A stretch of 64,000 bases of DNA from Caminibacter mediatlanticus TB-2 (GTDB lineage Bacteria > Campylobacterota > Campylobacteria > Campylobacterales > Nautiliaceae): the NCBI RefSeq assembly GCF_005843985.1, contig NZ_CP040463.1:218501-282500 (forward strand). The letters run 5' to 3'. The notes under the pieces were generated by a model. It was not told the DNA's origin. It saw nothing but the letters and a program-made list of their open reading frames with translations, and made no database searches. A program made the position numbers and the translations under genes. This document shows, in pieces, positions 54,701-57,865 of the stretch. Position 1 is the first letter of the stretch, and each line of letters starts with the position of its first letter.

Positions 54701-54757
54701 TTTCCTTAAAAAAAGGAAATATTATTTATATTTTTTTATCTTTTTCTCTACTTTTTA

Positions 54758-54785
54758 TTTTACATTTTACATTATACATTATATA
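54758..54785 (-). repeat. Heptad array e (4 x 7 bp) forming a promoter
   Basis: Minus strand: TATATAA, TGTATAA, TGTAAAA, TGTAAAA. On the plus strand this supplies TTTACA (54759-54764), a 17-bp gap and most of TATAAT (54782-54787). Confidence 0.75.
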
Positions 54786-54787
54786 AT
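54759..54787 (+). promoter_or_regulatory. Sigma-70 promoter for the leader RNA/alpha operon
   Basis: TTTACA (54759-54764), 17-bp spacer, TATAAT (54782-54787). The predicted start is about 54791-54794, at the first base of the GTCCCCC that opens the structured RNA. Confidence 0.65.
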
Positions 54788-54790
54788 ATC

Positions 54791-54870
54791 GTCCCCCGAA
54801 ACTACAAAGAGGCTTTGCAAGTGTTTGAAAACATTTGCAAGGGCTGGTCTTCGTACCTAAGGGGATTAGG
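54791..54870 (+). ncRNA. Candidate structured leader RNA with pseudoknot
   Basis: About 80 bases with far higher G+C than the surroundings. (1) An 11-bp hairpin, 54815-54825 with 54830-54840, closed by TGAA. (2) A hairpin CCTAA-GGGGA-TTAGG (54856-54870), whose loop GGGGA is complementary to TCCCC at 54792-54796 near the 5' end, giving a possible long-range pseudoknot. (3) A competing GGT/ACC pairing (54846-54857). I could not match it to SRP RNA, 6S, tmRNA, RNase P or common riboswitches. Its place upstream of the S13-S11-S4 operon suggests a ribosomal-protein autoregulatory leader; a free small RNA is possible. Confidence 0.6.
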
Positions 54871-54880
54871 AAATGTTAAA

Positions 54881-54901
54881 TTGGCAATGGAAAATAGAAA
54901 A
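54881..54901 (+). repeat. Heptad array f1 (3 x 7 bp)
   Basis: TTGGCAA, TGGAAAA, TAGAAAA, in direct orientation, just after the leader RNA. With array f2 it forms an inverted pair around TTAATTAA (ATGGAAAAT at 54887 pairs with ATTTTCCAT at 54935). Confidence 0.7.
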
Positions 54902-54914
54902 TTACTTTAATTAA

Positions 54915-54942
54915 TTGTCAATTTTTCATTTAAAATTTTCCA
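54915..54942 (-). repeat. Heptad array f2 (4 x 7 bp)
   Basis: Minus strand: TGGAAAA, TTTTAAA, TGAAAAA, TTGACAA, followed by TTAATTAA. It lies between the leader RNA and rpmJ. Confidence 0.7.
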
Positions 54943-54961
54943 TAAAATTAAAGGGGATATT

Positions 54962-55075
54962 ATGAAAGTTAGAGCATCAGTTAAAAAAATTTGCCCTAAA
55001 TGCAAAATAGTAAAAAGAAAAGGCACTGTTAGAGTTATTTGTGAAAATCCAAGACATAAACAAAGACAAGGATAA
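54962..55075 (+). CDS. rpmJ: 50S ribosomal protein L36
   Basis: A 37-residue protein, [20 protein letters not shown] continuing to RQG, with the zinc ribbon CPKC...CENPRH that marks L36. The start follows AAAGGGG. It opens the rpmJ-rpsM-rpsK-rpsD-rpoA-rplQ operon. infA, which often precedes it in this phylum, is absent here. Confidence 0.96.
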
Positions 55076-55078
55076 AAC

Positions 55079-55447
55079 ATGGCAAGAATTGCAGGTATAG
55101 ACTTACCTAAAAATAAAAAAATAGAATATGCACTTCCATATATTTATGGAATTGGACTTACAACAAGTAGAAAAATTTTAAAAGATACAGGAATTGATCC
55201 AAATAAAAGAGTATATGAATTAACAGAAGATGAAGTATCTATTTTAAATAAAGAAATTCAAAATAATTACATAGTAGAAGGTGAGCTTAGAAAAATAGTT
55301 CAACTTAATATTAAAGAACTTATGGACTTAGGTTGTTATAGAGGTCTTAGACACAGACGTGGATTACCTGTTAGAGGTCAAAGAACTAAGACTAATGCGA
55401 GAACTCGCAAAGGTAAAAGAAAAACTGTTGGTGCAAAAGCGAAATAA
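55079..55447 (+). CDS. rpsM: 30S ribosomal protein S13
   Basis: A 122-residue S13: [20 protein letters not shown] at the start, [27 protein letters not shown] near the end. It contacts the P-site tRNA and S19 in the head of the 30S subunit. Three bases after rpmJ. Confidence 0.98.
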
Positions 55448-55457
55448 GGGGTAGATG

Positions 55458-55850
55458 ATGGCAAAAAGAAAATTAACTAAAAAGAAAAAGATTAAAAAAC
55501 AAGTAGGAAGAGGAATTGTTTATATTTCAGCTACTTTTAATAATACAATGATTACAGTTACAGATGAAATGGGTAATGCTTTATGTTGGAGTAGTGCAGG
55601 TGCACTTGGTTTTAAAGGAAGTAAAAAATCAACTCCATTTGCAGCTCAACAAGCAGTAGAAGATGTTATGGCAAAAGCAAAAGAGTATGGTATTAAAGAA
55701 GTAGGAATTAAAGTTCAAGGACCAGGTGGAGGTAGAGAGACTGCTGTTAAAACAGTTGGTGCTATTGATGGTATTAAAGTTTTATGGATGAAAGATGTAA
55801 CACCATTACCTCACAATGGTTGTAGACCAAGAAAAAGAAGAAGGGTGTAA
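55458..55850 (+). CDS. rpsK: 30S ribosomal protein S11
   Basis: A 130-residue S11 with [30 protein letters not shown] and the C-terminal [16 protein letters not shown]. The second of two adjacent ATGs (55458) is favoured by the AAGGGG spacing. Confidence 0.98.
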
Positions 55851-55852
55851 CG

Positions 55853-56479
55853 ATGGCAAGATATACAGGACCAGTTGAAAGAATTGAAAGAAGACTTGGA
55901 GTTAGCTTAGAGCTAAAAGGTGAAAGAAGATTAGCAGGAAAGTCTGCACTTGATAGAAGACCTTATGCACCAGGGCAACATGGACAAAGAAGAGCAAAAA
56001 TTTCTGAGTATGGGCAACAACTTAGAGAAAAACAAAAAATTAAATATTACTATGGTGTACTTGAAAAACAATTTAGAAGATTTTTTAAAGAAGCAAATAG
56101 ACAAGAAGGAAATACAGGGGAGAACCTAATTAAACTTCTTGAAAGAAGACTTGATAATGTAGTTTATAGAATGGGATTTGCAACAACAAGAAGATTTGCA
56201 AGACAACTTGTAACTCATGGTCATATTTTAGTAAATGGAAAAAGAGTTAATATTCCTTCTTATATTGTAAAAGAAGGTGATAGAATTGAAATTAGAGAAA
56301 AATCTAAAAACAATCCTCAAATTCAAAGAGCATTAGAATTAACAGCACAAACAGGTATAGCTCCTTGGGTTGATGTAGATAAAGAAAAAATGGTTGGTGT
56401 ATTCCAAAGAGTACCTGAGAGAGAAGAAGTAAATATTCCAGTAGATGAAAGATTAGTAGTTGAGTTATACTCTAAATAA
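55853..56479 (+). CDS. rpsD: 30S ribosomal protein S4
   Basis: A 208-residue S4 with an S4 RNA-binding domain ([40 protein letters not shown]). It nucleates 30S assembly and, in E. coli, represses this operon by binding a pseudoknot leader. That makes it the first candidate ligand for the structured RNA upstream. The N-terminus lacks a four-cysteine zinc motif. Confidence 0.98.
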
Positions 56480-56492
56480 TAGGGGCTAAAAA

Positions 56493-57494
56493 ATGAATAA
56501 AATTAAAACAGAAGTTTCAATTCCAACAGAATTTTCATATAATAAAGAAGGCAATAAAGCTTCAATTGAAGTTTATCCTTTTGAAGCTGGATTTGGTGTA
56601 AGTGTAGCACATCCAATTAGAAGAACATTAATTGCAGCTACTACTGGATTTGCTCCAGTAGGGCTTAAAATTGAGGGAGTTAAACATGAATTTGATTCCC
56701 TAAAAGGTATGCTTGAAGATGTTGCAAGTTTTATTATTAATCTAAAAAATATTAGATTTAAAATAAAAAATTCTTCAAAAGATGAAGTTGTAGTAGAATA
56801 CTTTTTTACAGGGCCAAAAGAAATAAAAGGTGCTGATTTAATAAATGAAGAAATTGATGTAGTTACACCTGATGAATATATTGCTACTTTAAATGAAGAA
56901 GGTGAGTTAAAATTAACTCTTTTAATTAAAAAAGGTATGGGATTTGTAGCAGTTGAAAATTTTAGAGATACTTTGCCAGAAGGATTTATTGGACTTGATG
57001 CATATTTTTCACCAATAAAAAAAGCAGTTTATAATATTGAAAATGTATTAGTAGAAGATGACCCAAATTATGAAAAAGTAATTTTTGAAGTAGAAACAGA
57101 TGGACAAATTGATCCAATAGATGCATTTAAAAATGCAGTTAATAATTATTTAAATCAATTTGGAGTATTTTCAAAAGAGTTTAAACTTGAAACAAAAAAA
57201 GTTGAAAATGTTGAACTACCAGATGAGTATAATATTTTATTTAAACCAATTGAAGAACTTAATCTTAGAAGTAGAAGTTTTAATGCTTTAGATAGAGCAG
57301 GAATTAAATTTATTGGTGAATTAGTATTAATGGGTAAAGAAAAAATATCTAATATTAAAAATTTAGGTACTAAATCACTTGAAGAAATTTTTGAAAAACT
57401 TGAAGAAATTGGATTTTCAATAAATAAAACATTGCCACTTGATTTCAAAAAGGCAATTGAAGAGAAGTTAGCAAAACTTAAAGGAGAAGAGTAA
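56493..57494 (+). CDS. rpoA: RNA polymerase alpha subunit
   Basis: A 333-residue alpha subunit. The N-terminal dimerisation domain has [15 protein letters not shown], and the C-terminal domain from about residue 250 has the helix-hairpin-helix [43 protein letters not shown] used for UP-element and activator contact. Confidence 0.97.
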
Positions 57495-57865
57495 TGAGAC
57501 ATAAACACGGATATAGAAAGCTTGGTCGTGATAGCGAGCATAGAATAGCACTTCTTAGAAACTTAGCTTGTGATTTAATTGAAAATGAAAAAATTGAAAC
57601 TACAGTTCCAAAAGCAAAAGAACTTAGAAAATATATCGAAAAAATTATTACAAGAGCAAAAAACAGTGATGATTTAAATACTCATAGATATGTATATTCA
57701 AAACTTGGAAGTAATGAAAGAGCAAAAGCAGCAACAAAAAAAGTTATTGAAATAATTGCTCCAAAGTTTGCTAATAGAAATGGTGGATATACAAGAATTA
57801 TTAAAACAAGATTTAGAAGAGGTGATGCAGCGGAGATGTGTATAATTGAATTTGTAGGAGAATAA
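57494..57865 (+). CDS. rplQ: 50S ribosomal protein L17
   Basis: A 123-residue L17, [29 protein letters not shown] at the start and [27 protein letters not shown] at the end. It overlaps the rpoA stop by one base and closes the ribosomal-protein part of the operon. Confidence 0.97.

Follow-up and report, generated by a model that had tools for sequence, protein, structure and literature searches.

A conserved RNA leader upstream of rpmJ in the alpha operon of Campylobacterota, predicted to be autoregulatory

A stretch of 64,000 nt from Caminibacter mediatlanticus TB-2 (GCF_005843985.1, NZ_CP040463.1, positions 218,501-282,500, forward), hereafter the window, carries an alpha operon headed by rpmJ, and about 97 nt 5' of that gene lies a short G+C-rich island. 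Is this island a functional RNA, how far does it extend through the phylum, and does it control the operon behind it? A first interpretation made from the letters alone, here called the sequence-only reading, had proposed an unclassified, pseudoknot-capable RNA: either a Campylobacterota autoregulatory leader, different in structure from the S4 leader of Escherichia coli, or a new riboswitch or small RNA. We addressed these questions by comparison with relatives.

The locus in Caminibacter mediatlanticus

The island had been placed directly behind a promoter, and a TATAAT box is indeed found there. The elements of the locus are as follows.

54782..54787, + strand: -10 box TATAAT, directly 5' of the leader, read from the sequence
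54792..54864, + strand: core of the leader RNA (P1 to P1'), E-value 1.3e-21 with model R1, of which it is a training sequence; 16 homologues aligned
54950-54956, + strand: Shine-Dalgarno sequence of rpmJ, AAAGGGG
54962..55075, + strand: rpmJ (bL36), gene 1 of the operon, from the open reading frame table
55079..57865, + strand: remainder of the alpha operon, from open reading frame translations
55079-55447, + strand: rpsM
55455-55850, + strand: rpsK
55853-56479, + strand: rpsD (S4)
56493-57494, + strand: rpoA
57494-57865, + strand: rplQ

The five genes behind rpmJ, which we take to be rpsM, rpsK, rpsD, rpoA, and rplQ, were named by general knowledge of these proteins, and rpsM served as the query in the search for the operon in relatives. 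TATAAT or a near variant occupies the same site in relatives of the family Nautiliaceae. Further upstream, at 54702-54745 and 3' of an NCS2 permease gene, a palindrome of the TTTCCTT-AAAAAA-AAGGAAA type is followed by a T-rich stretch; it recurs in relatives and is likely the terminator of the permease gene.

Distribution in Nautiliaceae

The leader is present once in the C. mediatlanticus TB-2 genome. DNA similarity located it in 19 of 21 Nautiliaceae genomes, this one included, and R1 added a twentieth (genome G009, locus L050), with E-values of the model reaching down to 1e-24. The sole genome of the family without the leader, G015, is 57% complete and also lacks rpsM; in all 20 genomes that do carry rpsM, the leader lies 5' of rpmJ and shows compensatory changes. 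Its distance to rpmJ ranges from 21 to 102 nt. The gene on its 5' side differs among relatives (NCS2 permease, MscS-type channel, Hsp20, and others), and thus the link of the leader is to the genes downstream.

At genome scale, R1 gave nothing convincing outside Nautiliaceae, only weak matches; the two that were inspected (L060 and L061) do not lie 5' of rpmJ within the stretches examined. Scanning genome and viral contigs for the pattern gave 90 loci that were re-scored, and the model fits none of them except those in Nautiliaceae/Campylobacterales bins and in one Epsilonproteobacteria bin. As a separate observation, infA (TIGR00008) was found in G003, G007, and G009 and not in the complete genomes G000 and G010, where the gene has possibly been overlooked or has diverged.

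Structure of the leader in Nautiliaceae

The structure was derived from RNAalifold and pair counts on 16 aligned sequences. Its elements in the window are listed here.

54794..54797, + strand: 5' strand of P1, CCCC, pairing with 54861-54864; 97.5% of cells paired, almost invariant in Nautiliaceae
54861..54864, + strand: 3' strand of P1, GGGG, on the same basis
54804..54809, + strand: 5' strand of PK1, ACAAAG, pairing with the P4 loop at 54849-54854
54810..54845, + strand: hairpin P3, with its 5' strand at 54810-54825, loop at 54826-54829, and 3' strand at 54830-54845
54846..54857, + strand: hairpin P4, GGU CUUCGU ACC, short here, reaching 7 bp elsewhere
54856..54870, + strand: CCTAA-GGGGA-TTAGG, unconserved and excluded from the RNA, with TTAGG in 0/19 relatives

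Folding of a 101-nt strand gave -30.1 kcal/mol (z -2.65), which 2 of 200 shuffles equalled. In the 16-sequence alignment, double changes occur at 13 pairs in 47 cells, compared to shuffle means of 9.5 and 19.3; none of 500 shuffles matched the 47 cells, and controls with the pairing slid along the alignment collapsed. P3, a long hairpin with an almost invariant base (GAGGCUUUG...CAAGGGCUGG), shows double changes at 8 of its 15 pairs and is 97.9% paired in this alignment. P4 takes the form GGY...RCC in Nautiliaceae, with U-A/C-G covariation of 11/5, and reaches longer helices in L050 and L019 (GGUUA/UAACC and GGUCU/AGACC). PK1 was evaluated by scoring each genome's strand before P3 with the P4 loop of that genome and with the P4 loops of the others: over 20 Nautiliaceae members, own pairing exceeded permuted pairing with z 3.0 (P<=0.0018), and the two strands change together from AAG/CUU to AUG/CAU, AAUAG/CUAUU, and UCAAAG/CUUUGA.

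These results retain part of the structure drawn by the sequence-only reading. The 11-bp hairpin TTGCAAGTGTT-TGAA-AACATTTGCAA is present at 54815-54840, with one G.U pair. The letters of the CCTAA-GGGGA-TTAGG hairpin are there as well, but the hairpin is private to the C. mediatlanticus TB-2 genome: at this place the 19 relatives carry CCTAAGGGG or near variants (CCTATGGGG, CCTACGGGG, CCTGACGGGG), and none runs on into TTAGG. The pairing of TCCCC with GGGGA is real, but it forms the outer closing helix P1 and not a pseudoknot with a hairpin loop. Thus the RNA is pseudoknotted as claimed, but through other contacts than those originally drawn, which are unconserved; the conserved ones join the P4 loop to the strand before P3 and, in other families, the P3 loop to a strand before the Shine-Dalgarno sequence.

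A nested helix P2, formed on the strands of PK1 and P4, is possible in most Nautiliaceae members and belongs to the free-energy minimum. The longer P4 of L004, L019, and L050 favours the pseudoknot over P2, and the two arrangements, nested P2 and P4/PK1, may be mutually exclusive states. One long hairpin that includes nested P2 was rejected as the main structure, as the stronger P4 of the other families and of L004, L019, and L050 conflicts with it; this hairpin may be an alternative state. Another candidate, a switch in which the 5' CCCC pairs with the AAGGGGAT Shine-Dalgarno sequence, is feasible in about six Nautiliaceae members and was dropped because the pairing is not constant in the family. 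Inserts of tens of bases are tolerated in the spacer and in the apical loop of P3, not in the core.

A diverged version in other families of Campylobacterota

Read by eye, the regions before rpmJ in other families follow the same plan with different letters: promoter box, P1, (U)GAAG, P3, UUGG, P4, CC(U), complement of the P3 loop, and Shine-Dalgarno sequence. A second model, R2, was built from 15 other-family sequences on P3 and P4 only, with no Nautiliaceae member. It matched 203 of the 399 sampled genomes of the order, one copy in each, and these matches span about 15-16 other families, two of them (f9 and f23) with weak E-values. rpmJ lies downstream at 97 of 100 R2-aligned loci (95 by a pattern test and 2 on inspection); at the remaining 3, the sequence beyond the leader covers no more than 293-450 nt or an insert intervenes. 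A TAHWWT box is found within 40 nt upstream of the leader at 92 of these 100 loci, compared to 56 of 175 control windows. In several of these families the leader sits between infA and rpmJ; in Nautiliaceae, infA is elsewhere where it was found. Beyond the phylum, R2 had no match in 50 genomes of many phyla, a set without an internal positive control that was searched at the filter setting which matched the 203 Campylobacterota, and it had two weak matches in 297 genomes of another phylum (that of G567), neither of them 5' of rpmJ.

Covariation in P3 and P4 is extensive, with double changes at 20 of 22 pairs and 406 cells against a shuffle mean of 120 in 98 distinct rows, an alignment that was fitted to P3/P4 and therefore leans towards these two helices; slid controls on the same rows drop to 13-109 cells. 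P4 alone is 97.8% paired in the 98 sequences, with five double-change pairs. P1 and both pseudoknots are unpaired in R2, and so they provide separate tests. The helix equivalent to P1 covaries (z 7.1), and pairing of the P3 loop with the downstream stretch scored 14.48 for cognate strands against 12.45 (sd 0.22, z 9.1), z values that serve as a guide and not as a probability because the permutation ignores part of the relatedness. Loop and partner strands change together (CCACU/AGUGG, GCACC/GGUGC, CCGCU/AGCGG, GGGAA/UUCCC, UGCACCGG/UCGGUGCA), and the partner strand ends at a median of 22 nt 5' of the rpmJ start, just upstream of the Shine-Dalgarno sequence. The spacer between P4 and rpmJ varies from 32 to 432 nt.

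Are the two versions one RNA? Applied to the 20 Nautiliaceae loci, R2 placed 18 of 19 best matches at the elements, with E-values from 1.4e-4 to about 1.6, many of them weak. In the other direction, R1 matches leaders outside Nautiliaceae at L197 (1.2e-6), L199 (8e-5), and L238 (0.0018). Given these cross-matches, the identical placement, and a common core of GA...UNGG...CCU, homology of the Nautiliaceae and other-family leaders is well supported on comparative grounds, with many single E-values being weak. The two versions differ in their pseudoknots. The P4-loop pseudoknot PK1 is present in Nautiliaceae and weak elsewhere (z 2.0), and the P3-loop pseudoknot of the other families was tested in Nautiliaceae and is absent there (z -0.9). 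The two lineages seem to have replaced one of these pseudoknots by the other while keeping the core.

Comparison with known systems

The RNA had been called unclassified, and Rfam searches at gathering and lax thresholds agree, giving only sub-threshold matches in the window and 20 diverse relatives. In the same set, the model of the E. coli S4 leader (RF00140 Alpha_RBS, gathering threshold 38 bits) has no match at the leader, in keeping with the proposed unlikeness to that structure. Sub-threshold RF00140 scores do fall over the end of rpmJ and the start of rpsM, with 22.8 bits at L198 and 13.3 bits at window positions 55024-55111; at L198, conserved rpsM codons (ATGGCACGTATTGCAGG) contribute most of the score, and 3 of the 10 drawn pairs are non-standard. 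By these scores, no site of the E. coli type is evident at rpsM.

The E. coli alpha operon leader resembles the one described here in its operon (rpsM-rpsK-rpsD-rpoA-rplQ), in having a pseudoknot, and in probably acting on translation. However, its helices are different, its first gene is rpsM instead of rpmJ, and its ribosome binding site lies inside the pseudoknot (PMC10931766), whereas the structure here ends before the rpmJ Shine-Dalgarno sequence. Candidate S4 leaders from Clostridia and Fusobacteriales (Eckert and Weinberg 2020, PMC7247131) are likewise predicted from covariation, lie 5' of rpsM-rpsK-rpsD-rpoA-rplQ, and have S4 as presumed ligand. They belong to other lineages, and their GUAA/GAAA motif, of which GUAA is taken to imitate 16S rRNA, is not conserved in Nautiliaceae. 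The Bacteroidia and Flavobacteria candidates in the same survey are also predicted S4 leaders but are described as hairpins 5' of rpsD, in contrast to the multi-helix pseudoknot 5' of rpmJ here. The Bacillus subtilis rpsD leader shares S4 autoregulation through RNA 5' of the start site, but it controls a separate rpsD and has no pseudoknot (PMC10931766). Mycobacterial uS15 leaders of rpsO also place a pseudoknot 5' of the initiation site, with suggested hindrance of ribosome binding (PMC10931766); they concern another protein and gene, and we claim no sequence similarity to them.

As far as the available part of the survey goes, none of its 20 new leaders comes from Campylobacterota (PMC7247131), and a transcriptome study of Campylobacter jejuni and relatives, in its accessible portion, reports riboswitches, 6S RNA, and leader peptides and no such element. 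We call the leader new because it has no significant Rfam match and because these portions of the survey and transcriptome literature hold no Campylobacterota leader of this kind. Like a ribosomal leader, it lies consistently 5' of ribosomal protein genes (97/100 and 20/20 loci) and shows covariation measured against shuffled, slid, and non-cognate controls. By these comparative data, it is probably a ribosomal leader with an architecture of its own, uncatalogued in Rfam and structurally unrelated to the E. coli S4 leader. A bolder proposal, to which we give only a modest chance, is that it represents an undescribed class, found across much of the phylum, which recognises a protein without a known leader (e.g., bL36 or RNA polymerase alpha) and exchanges pseudoknots around its core.

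Campylobacterota include major pathogens and hydrothermal-vent bacteria, with no ribosomal leader at these loci in Rfam or in the available part of the survey, and the balance of ribosomal proteins and rRNA in this phylum would become directly testable. If our reading is true, it would add one more independent way in which an RNA controls the alpha operon. Pseudoknot exchange around one core would also help in studies of the evolution of RNA-protein recognition.

Proposed function of the leader

S4 is a product of the alpha operon and an early binder of 16S rRNA. Weighing the combined analysis, we somewhat favour the view that the leader is an autoregulatory, pseudoknotted, cis-acting 5' RNA of the alpha operon mRNA, with S4 as its putative ligand and translation as the presumed level of control. 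Transcription would start at the 5' end of P1. When S4 is in excess over rRNA, it would bind the folded leader and stabilise the compact fold beside the Shine-Dalgarno sequence, by which the 30S subunit would be blocked or trapped; translation of rpmJ would then fall, as would that of the genes behind it through coupling. Nautiliaceae would use P1, P4, and PK1 in place of the P3-loop pseudoknot. The choice of S4 as first candidate follows from its role as proven repressor of the alpha operon in E. coli, where it acts via another pseudoknot that entraps the 30S subunit (PMC10931766), and from its status as presumed ligand in four cases elsewhere, namely the leaders of Clostridia, Fusobacteriales, Bacteroidia, and Flavobacteria, which differ from one another in structure (PMC7247131). 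In the P3-loop pseudoknot, the 3' strand adjoins the Shine-Dalgarno sequence, a position that suits control of initiation. However, since the Shine-Dalgarno sequence is outside the structure and the spacer is variable, entrapment of the E. coli type is not obvious.

The same type of leader could instead respond to another product of the operon, namely bL36, uS13, uS11, bL17, or RNA polymerase alpha, a possibility we rate well below S4. The constant downstream neighbour of the leader is rpmJ, not rpsM, and rpmJ follows it immediately throughout, whereas the S4 target of E. coli contains the rpsM start site (PMC10931766); some leaders in the survey are, moreover, assigned to the product of the closest or sole gene (PMC7247131). 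An exact-word comparison with the organism's own 16S rRNA also gave no convincing mimicry of the S4 site, returning one shared 8-mer, GGTCTTCG, near position 412, in a stretch that differs among relatives. The GUAA found in certain S4 leaders is unconserved; among Nautiliaceae it precedes P3 only in L005, L012, L016, and L017. Against another product stand the proven regulation of these genes by S4 in E. coli and the survey table, which in its available part names no leader for bL36, uS13, or uS11 (PMC7247131). Less probable again is a structure without any sensing role, whose only task is maturation of the mRNA or its protection from 5'-end dependent RNases. The RNA starts a few nt past the -10 box, a GC helix closes its extreme 5' end, and AT-rich genomes could need such protection; yet the conserved core letters (GAAG and UUGG..CC) and a pseudoknot reaching into the initiation region exceed what a protective cap needs, and the element invariably belongs to the same operon, in a single copy per genome.

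The autoregulatory leader of the sequence-only reading is therefore kept as the preferred interpretation, although its scope was drawn too narrowly, as the RNA spans much of the phylum; with almost all checked copies linked to rpmJ, the riboswitch and the small RNA offered beside it become less likely. We consider it improbable that the leader is a riboswitch sensing a small molecule or ion. That reading would fit the compact pseudoknotted fold, the conserved core, and the position in the 5' UTR, but rpmJ follows at almost all checked loci and no gene for metabolism or transport was seen to carry the leader; the NCS2 permease gene is upstream, not downstream, and is inconstant. It is more improbable still that a free small RNA lies before rpmJ by chance. 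Such an RNA would account for the promoter box, and many short noncoding RNAs are reported in C. jejuni (PMC3847290), but the position is fixed to rpmJ across the phylum, in other families the initiation region of rpmJ is the pairing partner of the P3 loop, and inspection by eye of the interval from the RNA to rpmJ showed no common terminator. An AT-rich genome whose spacers hold inverted repeats might also form functionless hairpins by chance, a view refuted by the comparison across relatives and left with a negligible share of the probability: covariation far exceeds that of shuffles and slid controls, R1 reaches E-values of 1e-24, and the outcome of no conservation in relatives, named beforehand as refuting, did not occur.

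Inserts and repeats around the leader

Several loci show additional sequence near the leader. In Nautiliaceae, the P3-loop inserts of L016, L017, and L018 are tens of bases long and partly inverted repeats themselves, and the stem is intact. Inverted repeats (TGAAAAATG, GTTCCAA type) also occur at 54868-54949 of the window and in the long spacers of L007, L010, L011, and L014, so that short hairpin-forming repeats seem to insert there repeatedly. In family f4, loci L199, L316, L321, and L335 have inserts of 100-400 nt between leader and rpmJ, and the strand that partners the P3 loop (CAGTGCA at both L199 and L321) seems to lie within or 3' of the insert. At two loci of family f14 (L232 and L237), the leader described here was not seen in the roughly 200 nt 5' of rpmJ; both share a hairpin-rich stretch, CATAGTCGTTTAGG...CCTT.GAGGACTATAAACTC, possibly a distinct leader of the alpha operon.
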